A stretch of DNA of 64,000 bases, from assembly GCA_938005545.1 (NCBI GenBank), contig CALKXV010000013.1:1-64000 (forward strand), written 5' to 3'. A program made the translations under genes and the position numbers. This stretch comes from an uncultured Paracoccaceae bacterium. GTDB lineage: Bacteria > Pseudomonadota > Alphaproteobacteria > Rhodobacterales > Rhodobacteraceae. Shown here piece after piece: positions 32,263 through 62,013 of this stretch (the first letter of the stretch is position 1; each line of letters begins with the position of its first letter). Below the pieces are notes generated by a model. The model did not search any database. It had not been told where the DNA came from and saw only the letters and a list, made by a program, of their open reading frames with translations.

Positions 32263-32661
32263 TCATCCTTGATCAAACACCGCAGCGACAACTTCGATCT
32301 CGACCTTAAACTCGGCCCGCGTAAACCCGCCAACGATCATCAACGTCGAGGCTGGCAATCGTTCAACCCCCACCAACCACGCATCACGCGCGGCCATGTA
32401 ATCCGCCATATAGGCACGGTCGGTCACAAAGGCATTGATCCGAACCACATCCCCCGGCCCAGCGCCTGCTGCGCCCAAAATTGCAGCAATGTTTGAAAAG
32501 CAAAGGTCCGATTGCGCCCGAACACTCTCCGGGGTCGTGCCCGTTAAATCCACAGCCAACTGCCCGGATGTAAACACCAGCCGCGCACCTTTCGGCACCT
32601 CCACCCCATGGGTATAAGCCGCAAGGGGCGGTGCAATCGTCTTTGGTGTCAATTCCCGCAT
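32263..32661 (-). CDS. RidA-family protein (second copy)
   Basis: The 132-residue protein has RidA features: YTHGVEVPKGARLVFTSGQLAVD (early strand), QSDLCFSNIAAILGAAGAGPGDVVRINAFVTDRAYMADY, and the final LPASTLMIVGGFTRAEFKVEIEVVAA. The position of the usual catalytic Arg (R-P-A-R-T) is not conserved here (LPASTLM). It may therefore belong to one of the RidA subfamilies (Rid2-7) without general imine-hydrolase activity. ATG 32661 is preferred to 32760. It precedes the SRAP gene on the same strand. Confidence 0.87.
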   Translation of the reverse strand: MRELTPKTIAPPLAAYTHGVEVPKGARLVFTSGQLAVDLTGTTPESVRAQSDLCFSNIAAILGAAGAGPGDVVRINAFVTDRAYMADYMAARDAWLVGVERLPASTLMIVGGFTRAEFKVEIEVVAAVFDQG

Positions 32662-32869
32662 CAAAAGCCCCTTTTGCCAATCCGTCACCCTCTTTCGTGC
32701 GCGACATCGCGATTTTTTGCAAACGAATGCCGCTGCATCCCTGTGCGAATCACGAAACACCGACTAATCTTTAGGCAATCACCTTGGGGGGCGAGCAGTG
32801 GGTTTCGGGGGCATCTGGCACCCTGACCTCAATCCTCATAGGCAAAACTGAATAAACCTGGAGGTATCA

Positions 32870-33868
32870 ATGTTTCAAAAAACTCTGACAGCAGCTGCCG
32901 CGATGTCACTAATCGCGGGTACAGCACTCGCCGATGGCCACCTGACAAAGGTTAGTTTCGGCACAAACTGGGTCGCTCAGGCCGAACATGGTGGCTTTTA
33001 TCAATCTGTCGCGGACGGCACCTATGCCGAATGCGGTCTTGACGTCACCATCCTGCCGGGTGGTCCGCAGGTCAACAATCGGGCTCTGATGCTGGCGGGA
33101 CGGATCGATTTCCACATGGGTGGTGATCTGTTGCAAGCGTTTTCAGCAGCCCAGGAAAACATTCCCGTCGTCAACGTGGCGGCCATTTTCCAAAAGCACC
33201 CACAAGTTATCGTGGCACATCCGGGCGAAGCCGAAAGCTGGGAAGATCTCAAAAGCCTCGACACACTTCTGATCGGCGACAACGGCTTTCAGTCCTACTA
33301 CCAGTGGATGATCAACGCACACGGGTTCACCGCCGAACAGCGCAAGCCCTATACGTTTAACCCGGCGCCTTTCCTTGCCGACAAGAAAACCGGCATGCAG
33401 GGTTACCTGTCGTCGGAACCCTACCTCATCAAGAAAGAAGGCGGCTTTGATCCCAATGTCTTTTTGATCGCCGATGCGGGGTATTCAAGTTACGCCACAA
33501 CGATCGAAACCATGCGGGAAACGATCGACACCCGCCCCGAACAGGTACAGTGCTTTGTCGAAGGCTCGATCAAAGGCTGGTACAACTATCTTTATAACGA
33601 CAACGCCGCTGCAAACGCTGCTATTCAGGAAGCCAACCCTGAAATGACAGCCGACAAGATCGCCTTTGCCATCGACAAGCTGAAGGCTTGGGGCATTGTT
33701 GACAGCGGCGACGCAGAAACGCTTGGGATCGGCGTGATCACCGACAAAACCGTCGATGATTTCTATGCCAAAATGGTGGAAGCTGGCGTCGTGGACGGTG
33801 GCATCGACTACAAAGGCACCTATACGACCCAATTCGTCGGCAACGGCGTCGGCCTGGATCTGAAATAG
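32870..33868 (+). CDS. ABC transporter substrate-binding protein, NMT1/THI5-like
   Basis: The 332-residue periplasmic protein has a signal peptide (MFQKTLTAAAAMSLIAGTALADG) and the SsuA/THI5 fold: FGTNWVAQAEHGGFYQSVADGTYAECGLDVTILPGGPQ, then the middle MLAGRIDFHMGGDLLQAFSAAQE. Relatives bind pyrimidines (HMP or formylaminopyrimidine), taurine or nitrate; the TNW..EHGGFYQ start favours the pyrimidine-like group. It opens a nine-gene operon with its own ATPase, permease and catabolic enzymes. GGAGG precedes the ATG. I looked for a TPP riboswitch upstream and saw none. Confidence 0.9.
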   Translation: MFQKTLTAAAAMSLIAGTALADGHLTKVSFGTNWVAQAEHGGFYQSVADGTYAECGLDVTILPGGPQVNNRALMLAGRIDFHMGGDLLQAFSAAQENIPVVNVAAIFQKHPQVIVAHPGEAESWEDLKSLDTLLIGDNGFQSYYQWMINAHGFTAEQRKPYTFNPAPFLADKKTGMQGYLSSEPYLIKKEGGFDPNVFLIADAGYSSYATTIETMRETIDTRPEQVQCFVEGSIKGWYNYLYNDNAAANAAIQEANPEMTADKIAFAIDKLKAWGIVDSGDAETLGIGVITDKTVDDFYAKMVEAGVVDGGIDYKGTYTTQFVGNGVGLDLK

Positions 33869-33921
33869 GCCAGATATATGGGCCGAGCCTCGCGCTCGGC
33901 CTACCCCTCCCGGAGACGTCC

Positions 33922-34698
33922 ATGACACTGCCCCTTGGCCAGCGCGCGCCGCTTTTGTCCATGAATCACATCGAAAAGACATTCGCTGGCGACATCACAG
34001 CCTTGCGGGACATGTCCTTGAACGTGAACGAAGGCGATTTCCTATCTCTACTTGGCCCGTCAGGTTGTGGCAAATCGACGGCCCTTCGCCTGATCGCGGG
34101 CCTGTCACACCCAACCCGTGGGCGCATCGAATGGCAGGGCGGCAAAGGTAAAGATGATCTGGGCATTGTTTTTCAAGAACCAACCCTCATGCCTTGGGCC
34201 ACCGTCGCACAAAACGTGTGGTTGCCCTTCCGTCTGCGCGGCACCGGATTTGACGACGTCAAGACCGAGATTTACGAAGTGCTGAAGCTGGTCGGGCTTG
34301 AGAATTTCCGCGACGCCTACCCCCGTGAACTTTCCGGCGGCATGAAAATGCGAGTGGCCATTGCGCGCGCCATGGTCACCAAACCGCGCCTGATCCTGAT
34401 GGACGAACCCTTTGCAGCCTTGGATGAAATCACCCGCTTCAAGCTGAACAACGATCTGCTGGAATTGAAAGCCGCCATCGGCTGCACCGTGATTTTCGTG
34501 ACCCACTCGGTGTTCGAAAGCGTGTTTCTGTCGGATCGCATCATCGTCATGGCCGCCCGACCGGGCCGGGTTATCCATGAGCTGGAAGTCGACACACCTT
34601 ACCCCCGAAGCGAAGCCTTCCGCACCTCCGCCGAATACGCCGCCCACACGCGCGCGACATCAGATGCATTGGGCGAAGCAATTGGGGAAGCGGCATGA
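33922..34698 (+). CDS. ABC transporter ATP-binding protein (NMT1-type importer)
   Basis: The 258-residue ATPase has Walker A GPSGCGKST (about 45-53), the Q-loop VFQEPTLMPWATV, the signature LSGGMKMRVAIARAM (about 140) and Walker B LILMDEPFAALDEI. It belongs to the TauB/SsuB/ThiZ subgroup, which powers uptake of sulfonates, nitrate or pyrimidines. It follows the binding-protein gene by 53 bases with GGAG upstream. A 142-base gap containing an 11-bp tandem repeat separates it from the permease gene. Confidence 0.94.
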   Translation: MTLPLGQRAPLLSMNHIEKTFAGDITALRDMSLNVNEGDFLSLLGPSGCGKSTALRLIAGLSHPTRGRIEWQGGKGKDDLGIVFQEPTLMPWATVAQNVWLPFRLRGTGFDDVKTEIYEVLKLVGLENFRDAYPRELSGGMKMRVAIARAMVTKPRLILMDEPFAALDEITRFKLNNDLLELKAAIGCTVIFVTHSVFESVFLSDRIIVMAARPGRVIHELEVDTPYPRSEAFRTSAEYAAHTRATSDALGEAIGEAA

Positions 34699-34700
34699 TT

Positions 34701-34744
34701 GCACCGACGCAATACCGACGTGATACCGACGTGATACCGACGTT
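34701..34744. repeat. 11-bp tandem repeat, locus B (inside the ABC operon)
   Basis: CACCGACGCA is followed by ATACCGACGTG twice and ATACCGACGTT (34702-34744), with an exact 11-base period. It shares its unit and its GCACCGACG lead with the array at 26931-26974. It lies between co-directional ATPase and permease genes, starting three bases after the ATPase stop. Confidence 0.88.
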
Positions 34745-34767
34745 GGTTTTTTCGCGTTTTCAAAGAC

Positions 34768-34787
34768 TTGACCGCATTTGGGGTCAA
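34768..34787. repeat. Small inverted repeat TTGACC-N8-GGTCAA
   Basis: TTGACC (34768-34773) and GGTCAA (34782-34787) form a perfect 6-bp dyad around eight bases, between the tandem repeat and the permease gene. It may be an operator or a weak intra-operon hairpin. Confidence 0.45.
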
Positions 34788-34840
34788 TCAACACCAATGT
34801 GCCGTTCGCACCGGTTGAATTTCATTAAGGGGTCGCGATC

Positions 34841-35710
34841 ATGACCGTGACCGAAACCGTACCTGAAGCCAATCCAGACGCACCGGTGATCGACGTCGAA
34901 GAAGCTGCGCGCGCGCGGCGTGACAAGATCCATCGGATCGCCAGATGGATACTGCCCAGCCTTGTGATGGCGATGACACTTTTGGCATGGCACCTTTACG
35001 TGACGCTAAACAATGTACCCCATTATGTTCTGCCCGGACCGCTTTTGGTCGGCCAATCTGTCTTCGACGACTGGGGCATTCTGTGGCCTGCACTGCTGAC
35101 GACCTTACGCCTGACACTCCTTGCGCTGATCTTTGCAATCCTTGGCGGTGTGGCTTTGGCCGTTGCTTTCACCCAATCAAAATGGGCGGAAATGAGCTTC
35201 TTTCCCTATGCCGTTATCCTTCAGGTCACCCCGGTTGTCGCCATCGCACCGCTTTTGCAGATCTATGTCGACAGCGCCTTTGTCGCTGCACTTCTGTGCG
35301 CTTGGATTGTTGCATTTTTTCCAATCCTTTCAAACACAACCATCGGATTGAAGTCTGCCGACCATAACCTGCAAGACTTGTTCACCATTTATGGCGCGTC
35401 CCGCTGGCAACGGCTCCGATACCTTTCAGCACCCTCTGCATTGCCGTTTTTTCTGGGCGGTTTACGTATTGCCGGGGGCCTTGCCCTCATCGGTGCCGTG
35501 GTCGCCGAATTCGTCATCGGTCGCGCAGGCACGGGGCTCGGCCTTGCCTCAACCCTGCTGGAGGCCAGCTATCGGTTTAACTTTGGACGGCTTTACGCCG
35601 CACTCATCCTGATCTCGGCCATGGGCGTTGCTATCTTCGCCGTCACATCACTGATCAGCCACCTGTTGCTGCGCAAATGGCACGAAAGTGCACTGAAGCG
35701 TGAAGGATGA
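34841..35710 (+). CDS. ABC transporter permease (NMT1-type importer)
   Basis: The 289-residue protein has about six membrane helices after a 40-residue polar N-terminus. The BPD_transp_1 loop that docks on the ATPase reads ADHNLQDLFTIYGASRWQRLRYLSAPSALPFFLGGLRIAGGLALIGAVVAEF. It belongs with TauC/SsuC/ThiX permeases. AAGG lies upstream of ATG 34841. Its stop overlaps the amidohydrolase start (ATGA), tying transport to the catabolic genes. Confidence 0.93.
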   Translation: MTVTETVPEANPDAPVIDVEEAARARRDKIHRIARWILPSLVMAMTLLAWHLYVTLNNVPHYVLPGPLLVGQSVFDDWGILWPALLTTLRLTLLALIFAILGGVALAVAFTQSKWAEMSFFPYAVILQVTPVVAIAPLLQIYVDSAFVAALLCAWIVAFFPILSNTTIGLKSADHNLQDLFTIYGASRWQRLRYLSAPSALPFFLGGLRIAGGLALIGAVVAEFVIGRAGTGLGLASTLLEASYRFNFGRLYAALILISAMGVAIFAVTSLISHLLLRKWHESALKREG

Positions 35711-36972
35711 AGCCACTTGGTGAAAACGGCCTTTGGCGGCTTCGCAATGTTACGGTTCCGGGCTGTCTGGTGGGCAAAGATGATGATCTGGTTGTCACCA
35801 ACCTGACCGTTGACGGCGACCGCTTCGCAGACCGCGGCGGCACCGATATTGAAATGGATCGCGCCATCGTTCTGCCGTGCTTTGTTGATATGCACACACA
35901 TCTCGACAAAGGTCACATCTGGCCCCGCGCCTCGAACCCGGATGGGTCTTTCATGGGCGCGCTCGGCACCGTTTCAAAAGACCGCACAGCCAATTGGAGC
36001 GCGGCAGATGTGCGCACCCGAATGGAATTTTCGCTCAAGTGCGCTTATGCCCATGGAACCGCTGCGATCCGTACACATATCGACAGTCTTGTGCCGCAGG
36101 ACGAAATTTCCTGGCCCGTTTTCGCCGAAATACGCCGCGACTGGGAGGGCCGGATCGACCTTCAGGCCTCAAGCCTTGTTGGCTGCGACAGCTTTGAAAA
36201 TGTCCGTGAGGACTATGCTGACACAGCCGATATCGTTGCGGGAGCTGGTGGCGTGCTTGGCATCGTCACGTACCCTGTGCCCGACATCAAAACGCGCCTG
36301 AACGATTTCTTCCATCTTGCGGGTGACCGCGAGCTCGACGTCGATTTTCATGCCGACGAAACCATGGATGCCAGTTCGGAAACCCTGCGCCTGATTGCTG
36401 AAACCGTTTTGGAATCCCGGTGGGATCGGCCCGTCACTGTCGGCCACTGCTGTTCCTTGTCTACCCAGGACGATGCACGCGCGATGGACACGCTTGATCT
36501 TGTCGCGAAGGCCGGAATTAACATCGTCAGCCTGCCCATGTGCAACCTTTACCTGCAAGATCGCCACGCCAACAGAACACCGCGCAACCGTGGCATAACG
36601 CTGGTTCACGAGATGGTTGCACGCGGGATCAACGTCAGCTTTGCCAGCGACAACACCCGTGATCCGTTTTATGCTTATGGCGATCTCGACATGCTGGAAG
36701 TGATGCGCCAGGCGACACGTATCGGTCATCTGGATCACAGCCGTGCCGATTGGCCAAATACATTTCTGGGCAACCCGGCAAAAGCCTGTGGCTTCAAACC
36801 CCCTTGCTTCGAGACCGGCGCGCCTGCGGATTTCATTGTTTTCAAAGCCCGCACTTGGACCGAACTCTTCGCGCGCCCGCAATCGGACCGCATGGTGTTT
36901 CGAGGCGGCGAGGCTATCGACACAACACTGCCCGACTATTCTGAGTTGGATCACCTGATGGAGAAGTCTTGA
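35707..36972 (+). CDS. Cytosine-deaminase-like amidohydrolase
   Basis: The 421-residue protein is a TIM-barrel metal-dependent hydrolase of the COG0402/CodA type. The metal ligands are visible: HTHLDK (His63, His65), the DFHADE strand (about 218), VGHCCSLS (about 245) and SFASDNTRDPFYAYGDLDM (about 315). Cytosine deaminase and its relatives deaminate pyrimidines, creatinine, isoguanine or triazines. The SDNTRDPF context is similar to, but not the same as, CodA (GHDDVFDPW). The substrate ring is therefore likely a pyrimidine- or hydantoin-like heterocycle, which I cannot specify. Confidence 0.88.
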   Translation: MKPLGENGLWRLRNVTVPGCLVGKDDDLVVTNLTVDGDRFADRGGTDIEMDRAIVLPCFVDMHTHLDKGHIWPRASNPDGSFMGALGTVSKDRTANWSAADVRTRMEFSLKCAYAHGTAAIRTHIDSLVPQDEISWPVFAEIRRDWEGRIDLQASSLVGCDSFENVREDYADTADIVAGAGGVLGIVTYPVPDIKTRLNDFFHLAGDRELDVDFHADETMDASSETLRLIAETVLESRWDRPVTVGHCCSLSTQDDARAMDTLDLVAKAGINIVSLPMCNLYLQDRHANRTPRNRGITLVHEMVARGINVSFASDNTRDPFYAYGDLDMLEVMRQATRIGHLDHSRADWPNTFLGNPAKACGFKPPCFETGAPADFIVFKARTWTELFARPQSDRMVFRGGEAIDTTLPDYSELDHLMEKS

Positions 36973-38372
36973 TGAAAGCCAACGTCGCCGCCGCAAAATC
37001 CGCCCTGTCGCATTTGGAGATCGATCAGTCCGAGGCTGCGATCAAAGCAAAAAGCCGCGATTTCTTTTGGTATTCGCCGGTCTTGAAAGATCGGTTGGAC
37101 CATGTTGTCGCCGATTTTGTTGTGTCCCCCAGAACCGAAGCTGAAATTATCGAAGTCCTGAAGACCTGTTATGCCCACGACTGCCCCGTTACCACGCGCG
37201 GCGCAGGCACAGGCAACTATGGTCAGGCGATGCCGCTTGCCGGTGGGTGCGTCATGCATTTGCGCCACATGGATCGGGTGCGTGAAATCCACCCTGGTCG
37301 CGTGATCACAGAACCCGGTGTTCTGCTGAAAGATCTGGATGCGGCCTGCAAAGATCATTCGGGACAGGAAATCCGCATGTTCTCCTCGACCTGGGCGACG
37401 GCCACGATTGGCGGCTTTATCGCCGGTGGTTCGGGCGGTGTCGGGTCTTGTACCTGGGGAAGCCTGCGCGATCTTGGAAACATCATCCGTCTGCGCGTTG
37501 TTACGATGGAGGAGGAGCCGCGCGTTCTTGAATTCCGCGGCGAAGAATTGGCCCGCGTCAGCCATGCCTATGGGACGAATGGCATCATCACCGAGATCGA
37601 AATGCCGCTGGCACCCGCCTATGATTGGATTGAAATGTTCGTCGCCACGGAGGTTTTTGCCGAAGCTGTCGCCTTTGCCGAAGATCTTGCCAATCAAGAC
37701 GGCATTCTGATGAAACTTGGTACGGTTTTCGAAGCGCCAATTGCCAAAGACTACTTTCAGCGCGTGGCCCCATATGTCGAGGCGAACACCAACCTTGTCG
37801 GTTTGATGATCGCGCCGCAGTCCATGGACGGCTTCATGACATTTCTGGGCCGCCGCCCCGAAGCCAAGCTGATCTATCGCAACGACGATCTCACATGGGA
37901 TCGCAGCCCCGGACCCGTCTTTGAATACGGCTGGAACCACACAACGCTGCGCGCTTTGAAAGTTGATCCATCGATCACCTATTTGCAGGTGCGCTATGGC
38001 TATCCTCAGCACAAAGAGCTGATCGCCAAGATGCAAAGTGAATTGTCGCCCGAAGTCCTGCAACACCTCGAAGTGCTGCGCGAAAATGGCAAGGTCATGT
38101 TTGCGGGGTTGAGCTTGGTCAAGTTCACGACGGAAGAACGTTTGGACGAGATCGTGAAGATGCACGAAGATGCCGGTGCAATGGTTTTCAACCCGCATCG
38201 CTACACCCTGGAAGAAGGTGGACGCCAAACCGTGGACGACCGCCAACTGCGTTTCAAACAAGAAGCCGACCCAAAGGGGTTGTTGAACCCAGGCAAGATG
38301 ATCGCTTGGGATGACCCGAACTGGAGCTTCGATCAGATGTACGCTTATCCCAAGTTGCAGGCAGCCGAATGA
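36972..38372 (+). CDS. FAD-linked oxidase (PCMH/GlcD-like)
   Basis: The 466-residue protein has the N-terminal PCMH FAD-binding domain: VVSPRTEAEIIEVLKTCYAHDCPVTTRGAGTGNYGQAMPLAGGCVMHL (about 42-90), with STWATATIGGFIAGGSGGVGSCTWGSLRDLGN further on. A C-terminal FAD-oxidase-like cap ends LKGLLNPGKM-like (DPKGLLNPGKMIAWDD). Such enzymes oxidise hydroxy acids, sugars or alcohols. I chose ATG 36972, which shares one base with the upstream stop, over TTG 36969. No Fe-S binding cysteines are present. Confidence 0.88.
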   Translation: MKANVAAAKSALSHLEIDQSEAAIKAKSRDFFWYSPVLKDRLDHVVADFVVSPRTEAEIIEVLKTCYAHDCPVTTRGAGTGNYGQAMPLAGGCVMHLRHMDRVREIHPGRVITEPGVLLKDLDAACKDHSGQEIRMFSSTWATATIGGFIAGGSGGVGSCTWGSLRDLGNIIRLRVVTMEEEPRVLEFRGEELARVSHAYGTNGIITEIEMPLAPAYDWIEMFVATEVFAEAVAFAEDLANQDGILMKLGTVFEAPIAKDYFQRVAPYVEANTNLVGLMIAPQSMDGFMTFLGRRPEAKLIYRNDDLTWDRSPGPVFEYGWNHTTLRALKVDPSITYLQVRYGYPQHKELIAKMQSELSPEVLQHLEVLRENGKVMFAGLSLVKFTTEERLDEIVKMHEDAGAMVFNPHRYTLEEGGRQTVDDRQLRFKQEADPKGLLNPGKMIAWDDPNWSFDQMYAYPKLQAAE

Positions 38373-38947
38373 AGGCAATGGTGATCTTTGCCCATCCCTG
38401 CCCGGAAAGCTTCGGTGCAGCGTTGCATGGCAAGATCATAAGTGCGCTGAAAGATCGCGATTGGGACGTCGATGATTGCGATTTGAACGCGGAAAGGTTC
38501 CAACCGGTTATGACGGAAGAGGAACGCCGCAACTATCACGAAGAACCCGCTAACATCGAACCCGTGCGCGATTACGTCGAACGGCTTCGCGCGGCGGATG
38601 CTTTGATCTTTTCCTTCCCTGTCTGGAATTTCGGATACCCTGCAATTCTGAAAGGCTTCTTTGACCGTGTCTTTTTGCCCGGCGTGTCATTCAAATTGGT
38701 CGACGGCAAAGTTCGCCCCAACATGACCCACATCAAAAAGCTTGCCGCTGTCACGACATATGGCGGCACCCGGATGCGTGCTTTCATCGCGGGCGACCCG
38801 CCGCGCAAACATTTCACCCGCTCAGTCCGTTTCGTGATGCAACCTCAGACCATGCGTTATTCGGCATTGTATGACATGAACCGGGTCACGCTGGAGCAAC
38901 GCACCGCTTTTCTAGCCAAAGTCGAACGCGACATGCGGAGCCTTTGA
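38369..38947 (+). CDS. NAD(P)H oxidoreductase, flavodoxin-2 fold (first copy)
   Basis: The 192-residue protein has the flavodoxin_2/MdaB pattern: MKAMVIFAHPCPESFGAALHGKIISALKDRDWDVDDCDLN, the middle LIFSFPVWNFGYPAILKGFFDRVFLPGVSFKL, and VTTYGGTRMRAF. These bind FMN or FAD and reduce quinones or flavins with NAD(P)H. Its ATG overlaps the FAD-oxidase stop (ATGA), and the next gene is a divergent paralogue. It may supply reduced flavin or reduce a quinoid product in the pathway. Confidence 0.9.
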   Translation: MKAMVIFAHPCPESFGAALHGKIISALKDRDWDVDDCDLNAERFQPVMTEEERRNYHEEPANIEPVRDYVERLRAADALIFSFPVWNFGYPAILKGFFDRVFLPGVSFKLVDGKVRPNMTHIKKLAAVTTYGGTRMRAFIAGDPPRKHFTRSVRFVMQPQTMRYSALYDMNRVTLEQRTAFLAKVERDMRSL

Positions 38948-39543
38948 TGAAGGCGCTGGTGGTCTACTGCCACCCCAACGAAGCCAGCTTTACGGCGGCT
39001 GTCCGCGACACAGTGATCCGAAAATTGACCAACCAAAACGCCGATGTCCGCCTGTGCGACCTTTACGCGAGAGGTTTTGATCCACGCCTATCCTCCAAAG
39101 ACTTCGACGCTTATCTCGACACGCCGTCCAATCGCGCGACAGTTGCCGAGGACGTTGCTAATCTAACGTGGTGCGATACGCTGATCTTTGTCTATCCGAC
39201 ATGGTGGTATGGCCTGCCCGCGGTTTTGAAGGGCTGGCTTGACCGTGTATTCATTCCCGACGTCGCTTTCCTGATGCCGGATGACGCCAACAAGACGATC
39301 CGCCCGGGATTGCAGCACATAACGCGTCTTGGCGTTTTTACCACATGCGGCGCATCGTGGTGGCTTACCCAAATTATCGGTGCGCCGGGGAAACGAACGC
39401 TTATGCGGGGTGTTGGGTTTTTATGCGCCAAGAACCGCAAAACCGCTTTTGCCGCGCACTATCTTATGGACAGTTCCACCGATGCCTCGCGGCATCAGCA
39501 CCTTGACCGCGTGGCGAAAAAAATGGATCGCTTGCTGACATGA
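38947..39543 (+). CDS. NAD(P)H oxidoreductase, flavodoxin-2 fold (second copy)
   Basis: The 198-residue paralogue of the preceding protein has ALVVYCHPNEASFTAAVRDTVIRKLTNQNADVRLCDLYARGFDP, LIFVYPTWWYGLPAVLKGWLDRVFIPDVAFLMP, and LGVFTTCGASWW. The conserved P-x-W-x-Y/F-G-x-P-A-x-L-K-G motif is intact in both copies, so both are likely active and possibly form a heteromer. The start ATG 38947 shares one base with the preceding stop. Confidence 0.9.
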   Translation: MKALVVYCHPNEASFTAAVRDTVIRKLTNQNADVRLCDLYARGFDPRLSSKDFDAYLDTPSNRATVAEDVANLTWCDTLIFVYPTWWYGLPAVLKGWLDRVFIPDVAFLMPDDANKTIRPGLQHITRLGVFTTCGASWWLTQIIGAPGKRTLMRGVGFLCAKNRKTAFAAHYLMDSSTDASRHQHLDRVAKKMDRLLT

Positions 39544-40469
39544 CATATGAAGTTCCCATGCTCGATTGGTCCCGGTTTACTTCTGGTGATGATCGCGATG
39601 GCTTTGTCCGTGATCTGGGCCAGGCCTGTCGCAAGACCGGATTTTTCTTGGTTACGGGGCATGACGTTCCGCAGGGGTTGATTACCAAAACCTTCGCCGC
39701 AGCAGACCAATTCTTTAACTTGCCGGTGGCACAGAAAGCTCCGCTCGACATTCATAACCAAGGGAACAACCGGGGTTGGACGGCGCATGGCTCGGAAAAT
39801 CTGGACGATAGCCAGCCGGATCAAGTGGACCGAAAAGAAGCATTCAACATCGGGCTGGAATTGCCTGCTGACGATCCGCGGATCTCTGATCCGTTTCGTG
39901 GCACCAACCAATGGCCCGATCTGAACGGGTTCCGCGAGACCACTTTGGAATACTTTGCCGCGGTCCACCGATTGGGGATCGATTTGCACCGGGCCTTCGC
40001 CTTGGATTTGGGGTTGGACGAGACCTATTTCACGTCCTTTCTGGATGAACCTTTGGCGACGCTTCGAATGCTTAGATACCCGGCTGGCGATCCGTCAAAA
40101 GATGGAATTGGGGCAGGCGAGCATACGGATTACGGTTCTATCACCATTCTGATGAGCGATGGCGAACCCGGCTTACAACTGAAAATTCGGGACGGTGACT
40201 GGATCGATGTGCCGATGGTGCCCGGCGCCTTTGTGGTCAATATCGCCGATTGCCTGATGCGTTGGTCCAACGATATTTATGTTTCAACGCCACACCGCGT
40301 TCAGGTGCCAAGAAACGTGCGACGTTCGCTTGCGTTCTTCCTTGATCCAAATCCGGATGCCTTGATCAAGGCTTTGCCGGGTACGGGAGCAGCCAAATAT
40401 CCCCCCGTCACCGGCGCAGAGTACCTGAAGATGCGTCTTGATGCGACCTATGCCGAGAAGGCCACTTGA
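39540..40469 (+). CDS. 2-oxoglutarate/Fe(II) oxygenase, isopenicillin-N-synthase-like
   Basis: The 309-residue protein has the double-stranded beta-helix oxygenase fold. The iron triad is in EHTDYGSITILM (His195, Asp197) and TPHRVQVPRNVRRSLAFFLDPN (His252), with the R-x-S-type 2-oxoglutarate anchor just after. The DIOX_N part starts DWSRFTSGDDRDGFVRDLGQACRKTGFFLVTGHDV. Relatives oxidise purines, gibberellins, amino acids or antibiotics. In this operon it may hydroxylate or open the imported ring. Its ATG overlaps the previous stop by four bases. Confidence 0.93.
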   Translation: MTYEVPMLDWSRFTSGDDRDGFVRDLGQACRKTGFFLVTGHDVPQGLITKTFAAADQFFNLPVAQKAPLDIHNQGNNRGWTAHGSENLDDSQPDQVDRKEAFNIGLELPADDPRISDPFRGTNQWPDLNGFRETTLEYFAAVHRLGIDLHRAFALDLGLDETYFTSFLDEPLATLRMLRYPAGDPSKDGIGAGEHTDYGSITILMSDGEPGLQLKIRDGDWIDVPMVPGAFVVNIADCLMRWSNDIYVSTPHRVQVPRNVRRSLAFFLDPNPDALIKALPGTGAAKYPPVTGAEYLKMRLDATYAEKAT

Positions 40470-41267
40470 ATGACACGACGCTTAAACTGGGCCGATTACC
40501 GGACAACCGAATTCGAAGGGCTGGACCCTGAGAAAGTGATCGCCATTCTTCCCACGGCAGCGATTGAACAACACGGCCCCCATCTTCCTGTTGGTGTCGA
40601 TACGATGATTGCCGAAGGCATGCTTGACGAATTGCGCCGCCAATGCCCTGACGATCTGGATATCCGCATTCTTCCCGTACAATCCGTGGGCAAGTCGAAC
40701 GAACATCTGCATGCGCGGGGAACGCTGACGCTAACGGCAGAAACAGCGTTACGGGCTTGGCGCGAGATAGGCTTATCCGTGGCGCGCGCTGGCTTGCGCA
40801 AAATCGCGATCGTGAACAGCCACGGCGGCAATCTGGATCTGATATCAATCCTTGCGCGCGAGCTTCGGGTCGAAGCAGGAATGCTTGCTGTAAAGTGTCA
40901 GTGGGGCAATTTCGGCTCGCCGGATGGTCTGTATTCTGACCGCGAAGTGAGATTCGGTATTCACGGCGGCGATAGGGAAACGTCGCTGATGCTGCATTTT
41001 CGGCCCGAAACCGTGGATATGAGCAAGGCCGTTGACTTCGCGTCAACCGCAGAACAAGCCGTCATTCCGCCGATTGGGCCGATTTCCTATGGCTGGATCT
41101 CGCCTGACTTGAACCCTGACGGAACCGTTGGCGAAGCCCATTTGGCCTCGGCAGAAAAGGGAAAAAAGACGTCTGAACACCAGGCAAAGGGCTTTATTGA
41201 ACTGTTGCGCGCTATCCGCGACACCCCGCTCGGCAGCTTGGCGTCAGCGGGACGTAGAACTTCTTAA
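40470..41267 (+). CDS. Creatininase-family amidohydrolase
   Basis: The 265-residue protein has the creatininase metal-binding residues: PTAAIEQHGPHLPVGVDTMIAEGM (Glu, His, His and Asp, about 27-50), NSHGGNLDLIS (about 115) and IHGGDRETSLMLHF (His and Glu, about 170). Family members open lactams and cyclic or formyl amides (creatinine, formylaminopyrimidines, scyllo-inosose derivatives). It is the last gene of the operon, starting right after the previous stop. It probably opens a ring or cleaves an amide left by the upstream enzymes. Confidence 0.93.
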   Translation: MTRRLNWADYRTTEFEGLDPEKVIAILPTAAIEQHGPHLPVGVDTMIAEGMLDELRRQCPDDLDIRILPVQSVGKSNEHLHARGTLTLTAETALRAWREIGLSVARAGLRKIAIVNSHGGNLDLISILARELRVEAGMLAVKCQWGNFGSPDGLYSDREVRFGIHGGDRETSLMLHFRPETVDMSKAVDFASTAEQAVIPPIGPISYGWISPDLNPDGTVGEAHLASAEKGKKTSEHQAKGFIELLRAIRDTPLGSLASAGRRTS

Positions 41268-60301: not shown

Positions 60302-62013
60302 TGCCTGCAACGATTTCCCGCTCCGACTATGCCTCAATGTTTGGCCCGACCACCGGCGATAAACTTCGGCTTGCCGACACCGACCTGATCATCGAAGTCG
60401 AACGCGACCTCACCGGACCTTACGGCGAAGAGGTGAAGTTCGGTGGCGGCAAGGTGATCCGCGACGGCATGGGGCAATCCCAAACAACGCGCGCCGACGG
60501 CGCTGTCGATACCGTTATCACCAACGCCTTGGTGGTGGACCATTCGGGCATCTACAAAGCGGACATTGGCTTGAAGGACGGGCGCATCCACAAAGTTGGT
60601 AAAGCCGGAAATCCAGATACGCAGCCCGGCGTCGATATCATCGTTGGCCCCGGCACCGAAGCGATTGCAGGCGAAGGACGCATCCTGACGGCAGGTGGAT
60701 TTGACAGTCACATCCATTTCATCTGCCCGCAACAGATTGAAGATGCTCTACATTCTGGGCTAACCACCATGCTTGGCGGGGGCACGGGCCCGGCGCACGG
60801 CACACTGGCCACCACCTGCACGCCCGGCCCTTGGCATATCGGACGGATGCTGCAAGCTGCTGACGCCTTTCCGATGAACCTTGCCTTCGCGGGCAAGGGC
60901 AACGCCTCGCTGCCCGCCGCTTTGGAAGAACAGGTAAAGGGTGGAGCCGCCGCACTGAAGCTGCACGAAGATTGGGGCACAACGCCCGGCGCTATCGATT
61001 GTTGCCTTAGTGTCGCCGATGCCATGGACGTGCAGGTCATGATCCACACTGACACATTGAACGAAAGTGGCTTTGTCGAAAACACCGTAGCCGCCATGCG
61101 AGGCCGTACAATCCACGCGTTCCACACCGAAGGTGCAGGTGGCGGCCATGCGCCCGACATCATCAAGATTTGCGGCGAAGATCATGTGCTGCCAAGTTCC
61201 ACCAACCCGACACGGCCCTTCACAGTCAACACTGTTGAGGAACATTTGGACATGCTGATGGTCTGCCACCATCTGGACAAGTCCATCCCCGAAGACGTCG
61301 CTTTTGCCGAAAGCCGCATTCGCCGCGAAACGATTGCTGCCGAAGATATCCTGCATGACATGGGCGCATTTTCGATCATCGCCTCTGACAGTCAAGCCAT
61401 GGGGCGTGTCGGTGAAGTTCTGATCCGGACATGGCAAACCGCTGATAAGATGAAGAAACAGCGTGGGCGTCTGGCCGAGGAAACCGGCGAGAATGACAAT
61501 TTTCGCGTTCGCCGGTACATCGCAAAATACACGATCAATCCGGCCATCGCCCACGGCATGAGCCATGAAATCGGAAGTATTGAGGAAGGCAAACGCGCCG
61601 ACCTCGTGTTGTGGAGTCCTGCGTTTTTTGGCGTGAAGCCCGAGATGGTTTTGATCGGCGGCTCAATTGTTTGCGCACAGATGGGCGACCCTAACGCGTC
61701 GATCCCGACACCGCAGCCGGTCTATTCGCGGCCCATGTTCGGAGCCTTTGGTCGTGCGGTCGAACATGCAGCAGTGGTTTTCGTGTCGCAAGCGGCGCAG
61801 GCCGAAAACATTGGCGAAACGTTAGGTTTGGCCAAATCGACGTTGGCGGTCAACAACACGCGGGACATCGGCAAGAAGGATCTGAAGCTGAACGGCGCAA
61901 CCCCCGAAATCGATGTGCACCCCGAAACATACGAAGTCCGTGCGGACGGCGAATTGCTCACCTGTCAACCCGCAGAAGTTCTCCCCATGGCTCAAAGGTA
62001 CTTTTTGTTCTGA
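60301..62013 (+). CDS. ureC: Urease subunit alpha
   Basis: The 570-residue catalytic subunit binds two Ni ions. The carbamylated lysine is Lys220 in [16 protein letters not shown], the first Ni ligands are in [11 protein letters not shown], and the mobile-flap histidines are in [14 protein letters not shown] and [14 protein letters not shown]. The N-terminal strand [34 protein letters not shown] is diagnostic. It is full length and shows no substitution of a known active-site residue. Confidence 0.99.

Follow-up and report, generated by a model that had tools for sequence, protein, structure and literature searches.

A conserved gene unit of Rhodobacterales, probably for the uptake and breakdown of a nucleobase-like heterocycle

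We analysed a 64,000-nucleotide stretch of DNA, hereafter the window, from an uncultured Paracoccaceae bacterium (GCA_938005545.1, contig CALKXV010000013.1, positions 1-64,000 of the forward strand; draft genome 98.8% complete). Nine collinear open reading frames (ORFs) at 32870-41267 on its forward strand encode an ATP-binding cassette (ABC) importer followed by a set of enzymes. An earlier reading of the sequence alone (the sequence-only reading) had described them as an operon for the import and degradation of a nitrogen heterocycle, and all nine ORFs were recovered with the families that it had assigned. It had overlooked a tenth member, a divergent gene for a Rid-family protein, which has its intergenic region in common with the NMT1-type binding protein gene at the head of the operon. 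We found that these genes make up a conserved catabolic unit that is undescribed as far as the open-licence literature shows, and we consider it probable that the ten form one nutrient-scavenging unit, importing and breaking down a nucleobase-like heterocycle of the purine or pyrimidine type, probably as a source of nitrogen.

Gene content and conservation of the unit

The nine genes are tightly packed from the permease gene onward, where the six junctions comprise five overlaps of 4 bases and a last one at which the oxygenase and creatininase-family genes abut, in agreement with the 0-4 base overlaps noted in the sequence-only reading. The first two junctions are gaps of 53 bases (NMT1-ATPase) and 142 bases (ATPase-permease); the latter holds a short tandem repeat at 34706-34745, with about three copies of ATACCGACGTG. 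It had also been said, correctly, that no regulator is encoded among the nine genes.

When we searched 293 sampled genomes of the order Rhodobacterales with the amidohydrolase, a relative was found in 48, nearly always inside the unit. Genes were counted in 45 close loci, the window itself left out, and the counts per locus are lower bounds, since early contig ends can hide genes. The NMT1, ATPase, permease and FAD-linked enzyme genes were each kept in all 45 loci, as was a flavodoxin-fold reductase gene (the second gene in 45, the first in 43), while the creatininase-family gene was found in 38 and the Rid gene, divergent where it is co-conserved, in 36. The 2-oxoglutarate (2OG) oxygenase gene was present in 26 loci and absent from 19 in which the other genes mostly remain; it is therefore accessory, and the other genes are core. 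A substitute oxygenase was sought in the loci without it, where nothing consistent occupies its place. A second scan of species genomes, based on the oxygenase, gave 80 loci. Of these, 66 had 7 kb or more of sequence upstream; the full set of seven other core genes was found in 55 of the 66, the creatininase-family gene in 53 and the Rid gene in 46. The same gene order recurs across dozens of genera, so the arrangement goes beyond chance. The comparison of neighbourhoods thus showed the enzymes to be co-conserved; the nine-gene set of the sequence-only reading needs correction in that the oxygenase is accessory and the Rid gene had been omitted. Downstream aldolase-like and oxidoreductase genes were left out of the unit because they are shared by no more than a few close relatives. 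In three loci (L084, L099 and L104, the last cut by a contig end) the operon lies in two divergent, still adjacent halves, one with the transporter and deaminase genes and the other running from the FAD enzyme to the creatininase-family gene.

Beyond the order, a query with the FAD enzyme matched 32 of the 398 genomes of a phylum sample, and most of the matches inspected sit inside a recognisable version of the unit. On Rhizobium and Agrobacterium plasmids this version comprises creatininase-family, LysR, NMT1, ATPase, permease, amidohydrolase, FAD enzyme, Rid and a single flavodoxin-fold gene, and lies near a molybdenum hydroxylase. Klebsiella and Pantoea plasmids carry a PDR/VanB reductase together with amidohydrolase, Rid, creatininase-family, NMT1, ATPase, permease, FAD enzyme and LysR genes; the Klebsiella FAD gene had no match in E. 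coli complete genomes. Further variants in other Proteobacteria include a ferredoxin or TetR gene. Gene order differs in all these sets, and the electron-transfer gene varies (flavodoxin-fold, PDR reductase or ferredoxin) against a mostly constant background of hydrolases, FAD enzyme and importer, a pattern that would suit a redox partner of the FAD enzyme. A Rhizobium plasmid locus (L214, 1472-13641) combines a 43% identical creatininase-family relative with a nucleoside deaminase, an amidohydrolase of the TRZ/8-oxoguanine-deaminase group and a different transporter.

Searches of the open-licence literature with the names of the enzymes and with the PDB code 6v42 returned no description of the gene set, and the main text of a rhizosphere transcriptome paper (PMC3333776) names no gene for cytosine deaminase or creatininase. 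The earlier statement that no named pathway has exactly this composition therefore holds for that literature, and the set coincided with no known pathway. The unit spans marine, soil and clinical species, and because it is so widespread, with related sets in rhizobia and Klebsiella, there is probably an environmental nitrogen compound that lacks a known breakdown route.

Table 1. Coordinates of the unit and of a candidate operator in the window
Feature	Position	Strand	Family or remark
Rid-family protein	32263..32661	-	PF01042; ORF opens at 32760, conserved start MRELTP at 32661 (most likely start)
Weak copy of palindrome TGCCCAAnnnTTGGGCA	32762..32776	.	3 mismatches, between Rid and NMT1 genes; not significant in the window alone
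Periplasmic binding protein, NMT1 family, ThiY/THI5 type	32870..33868	+	PF09084
ABC transporter ATPase, NitT/TauT type	33922..34698	+	PF00005
ABC transporter permease	34841..35710	+	PF00528
Cytosine-deaminase-fold amidohydrolase	35707..36972	+	NF005759, 598 bits
FAD-linked oxidase/dehydrogenase (FAD_binding_4)	36969..38372	+	PF01565; relative of PDB 6v42
Flavodoxin-fold NAD(P)H oxidoreductase 1 (Flavodoxin_2)	38369..38947	+	PF02525
Flavodoxin-fold NAD(P)H oxidoreductase 2 (Flavodoxin_2)	38944..39543	+	PF02525
2OG-Fe(II) oxygenase, IPNS-like, accessory member	39540..40469	+	PF14226 + PF03171
Creatininase-family amidohydrolase, HGGN type	40470..41267	+	PF02633

Residues and relatives of the enzymes

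The amidohydrolase passed the cut-off of 403 bits of its NCBIfam model, whose name, 'cytosine deaminase', is not experimental evidence. Fold comparison placed it with cytosine deaminase, 5-methylcytosine deaminase and AtzC, and residues H63, H65, H215, E218, H247 and D315, invariant in 50 sequences, correspond to H61, H63, H214, E217, H246 and D313 of E. coli CodA. Although it has the fold and the metal and catalytic residues of CodA, Klebsiella 5-methylcytosine deaminase and AtzC, the window enzyme is only about 23% identical to them, carries an Asn at the Asp314 position and an invariant Lys after HTHLD, and has no equivalent of Gln156. In CodA, Gln156 binds the N3/O2 edge of the pyrimidine, reading the 2-oxo group of cytosine. 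Its counterpart falls in a gap in the PDB alignments, and among the 50 family members Gln is not the favoured residue in any of the columns 154 to 164. Judging by these residues, plain cytosine is an unlikely substrate.

A similar mismatch between name and active site was observed in two other members. The creatininase-family protein keeps E33, H35, D44, H118 and E170 invariant, but it failed the creatininase model TIGR04448 (84 bits, where 235 are required) and has HGGN where creatininase has HYEN; by motif and model score it is not a creatininase proper. The Rid protein has a Ser at the position of the catalytic Arg105/Arg104 of RidA/RutC in 105 of 105 aligned rows, a replacement seen in about 10% of RidA proteins (PMC4433059). 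Since this Arg binds the ligand carboxylate in RidA relatives (PMC4433059), a substrate without a carboxylate, such as a ring imine, would fit the Arg-less protein. The unit offers concrete candidates for enzymes that go under the misleading names of cytosine deaminase, creatininase and RidA.

The FAD enzyme belongs to the same protein family as the FAD/FMN-containing dehydrogenase of PDB 6v42/6v43 across nearly its full length (578 bits to 6v42), a structure on which we found no paper in the open-licence literature. In the oxygenase, the iron ligands H195, D197 and H252 and the 2-oxoglutarate Arg-x-Ser residues R261 and S263 are invariant in 29 aligned sequences. Its relatives include thymine dioxygenase, and those outside the operon (L043, L057, L058 and L111) lie, as read by eye, beside further oxygenases and apparent nucleobase-type transporters, with a guanine-deaminase-like gene nearby in L057.

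Riboswitch and regulator context

The ligands of the xanthine riboswitch (Rfam RF03054, NMT1-motif) are xanthine and uric acid, and the genes that it turns off serve purine oxidation, IPNS-like dioxygenases and NMT1/THI5-like genes among them (PMC7373994). Like the unit, the genes under RF03054 bring together IPNS-like 2OG oxygenases, NMT1/THI5-like binding proteins and amidohydrolase deaminases, and in Klebsiella and several Rhodobacteraceae they are physically adjacent to the unit. Beside their Rid end, nine operons carry a second gene for a 2OG oxygenase, preceded by RF03054 over the cut-off of 36 bits in six genomes, below it in two (35.1 and 31.5 bits) and by none in one. These nine genomes may share one ancestral arrangement, while Klebsiella and L158 have arrangements of their own: in Klebsiella the neighbour of the unit is an NMT1-amidohydrolase-2OG operon under riboswitch control (RF03054, 63 bits), and L158 has two riboswitches near a 43% identical amidohydrolase relative. 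The misnamed enzymes of the unit are in this way tied to riboswitch-controlled purine oxidation genes. The window operon differs from the riboswitch-controlled genes in having no riboswitch and in adding the FAD enzyme, flavodoxin-fold reductases, creatininase-family enzyme and Rid protein.

In L237 (6272-6322) and L238 (6515-6566) the riboswitch precedes the second 2OG oxygenase gene beside the operon, and a second cytosine-deaminase-like gene and an apparent nucleoside-type ABC transporter lie upstream, so that the region looks like a nucleobase-degradation island. Two operon-bearing genomes have a stand-alone xanthine-riboswitch 2OG oxygenase gene elsewhere (L243, 8927-8979; L244, 8688-8744).

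The TetR gene of some divergent variants is RutR-like, scoring 115 bits to E. coli RutR against 40 for the next TetR, although it stays below the RutR equivalog cut-off. Upstream of the NMT1 starts, the palindrome TGCCCAAnnnTTGGGCA occurs with at most two mismatches in 28 of 86 upstream regions, against 3.9 expected from shuffles, and is a possible shared operator of the Rid and NMT1 genes.

The adjacent riboswitches in relatives, the RutR-like TetR, the ThiY/THI5-type binding protein, the cytosine-deaminase fold without Gln156, and the thymine dioxygenase and nucleobase-type contexts among the oxygenase relatives together favour a nucleobase-like substrate other than plain cytosine. Several observations weigh on the other side. 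The riboswitch link rests on adjacency in some relatives; RF03054 was not found by Rfam before the window operon or anywhere in the window, the operon giving chance-level matches only, and none reached threshold in the window's own genome, although control genomes were silent too, so that a copy may still lie elsewhere in this genome. Co-occurrence of riboswitch and operon at the genome level is weak and not significant (3 of 45 operon genomes against 0 of 26 others), the RutR-like regulator is confined to divergent variants, and a binding protein of the ThiY type would be just as compatible with a thiamin-type pyrimidine. Elsewhere the genome has a gene for hydroxyisourate hydrolase, an enzyme of standard uricolysis, and the operon is therefore not required as its urate pathway.

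Proposed route and competing explanations

The context fits the uptake and catabolism proposed in the sequence-only reading for a pyrimidine- or hydantoin-like compound, with a purine- or pyrimidine-like substrate favoured and hydantoin left without specific support; the deamination, oxidation and ring opening suggested there are putative steps. In the route that we propose, the ThiY/THI5-type binding protein, ATPase and permease would import an amino-substituted nucleobase-like heterocycle, from which the cytosine-deaminase-fold enzyme would strip the amino group in the cytosol. The FAD enzyme, for which one or two of the NAD(P)H flavodoxin-fold reductases would act as redox partners, would oxidise or reduce the ring, an amide or formamide bond would be hydrolysed by the creatininase-family metalloenzyme, and the Arg-less Rid protein would handle a ring-derived imine or other unstable intermediate. 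Ammonia would be set free for growth, and the 2OG oxygenase, where present, might widen the substrate range by hydroxylating the ring or a side group. A more specific reading, which we consider unlikely, is an entirely undescribed catabolic route for a redox-active aminopyrimidine, such as a formamidopyrimidine or 5,6-diaminopyrimidine from purine, pterin or flavin breakdown: ThiY-like import would be followed by deformylation by the creatininase-family enzyme, deamination and oxidation to a quinonoid imine, which the flavodoxin-fold and Rid proteins would reduce or hydrolyse.

Among the other explanations, the salvage or breakdown of a thiamin-derived pyrimidine (hydroxymethylpyrimidine (HMP), aminomethyl- or formylaminomethyl-pyrimidine (FAMP)) survives best, although we regard it as unlikely. 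Here ThiY-like import would be followed by deformylation by the creatininase-family enzyme, the deaminase would take the 4-amino group and the FAD enzyme would oxidise the hydroxymethyl group. By sequence and fold the binding protein is nearest to FAMP-binding ThiY, a thiamin-bound homologue and THI5: a PDB profile search matched ThiY- and THI5-type chains only, the top Foldseek folds were 4nmy and 3ix1, and VIA-align Z was 29.1 to thiamin-binding 4nmy, 27.4 to FAMP-binding 3ix1, 25 to THI5 and at most 21-23 to others. Riboflavin-, sulfonate- and taurine-type binding proteins ranked lower, a ranking that alone does not exclude them. The loss of Gln in the amidohydrolase would also suit a 2-methylpyrimidine. 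As in ThiXYZ, which imports the thiamin pyrimidine, a ThiY/THI5-type binding protein goes with an ATPase and a permease, but in the window the transporter genes precede a catabolic enzyme set. In 28 operon or related loci and in the window, no match to the thiamin pyrophosphate (TPP) riboswitch passed the threshold, no thiamin genes were noticed near the operon, and the NMT1/THI5-like genes under xanthine riboswitches are distinct from thiamin genes (PMC7373994).

Rut-like breakdown of one of the ordinary pyrimidine bases (cytosine, 5-methylcytosine or thymine) seems improbable to us. The unit resembles the E. coli Rut pathway (rutABCDEFG, RutR) in its Rid protein, reductase partner and hydrolase and in the RutR-like regulator of divergent variants, and both the cytosine-deaminase fold and the thymine dioxygenase among the oxygenase relatives would suit such a base. 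However, no RutA exceeds the cut-off in the genome (best 44 bits against 498), an ABC importer replaces RutG, the deaminase is of the cytosine-deaminase type yet lacks a conserved Gln156 equivalent, and the Rid protein is without the Arg that RutC requires (PMC8113886). We would give as little weight to a role outside nutrition, in the detoxification of a redox-active heterocycle or in biosynthesis around one: two quinone-reductase-like flavoproteins and a Rid protein suit damage control, but nearly every variant has a binding-protein-dependent importer, and two hydrolases belong to the core. Degradation of creatinine or hydantoin, as the family names would have it, is very improbable in spite of the creatininase Pfam match and of the activity on creatinine reported for CodA-type enzymes, because the creatininase-family protein falls below the creatininase cut-off and has the HGGN motif, and no creatinase or hydantoinase was recognised among the neighbouring genes.

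Toward the far end of the window, an Rfam match to RF02514 (5' ureB small RNA; 108 bits) lies at 60457-60744 on the reverse strand.

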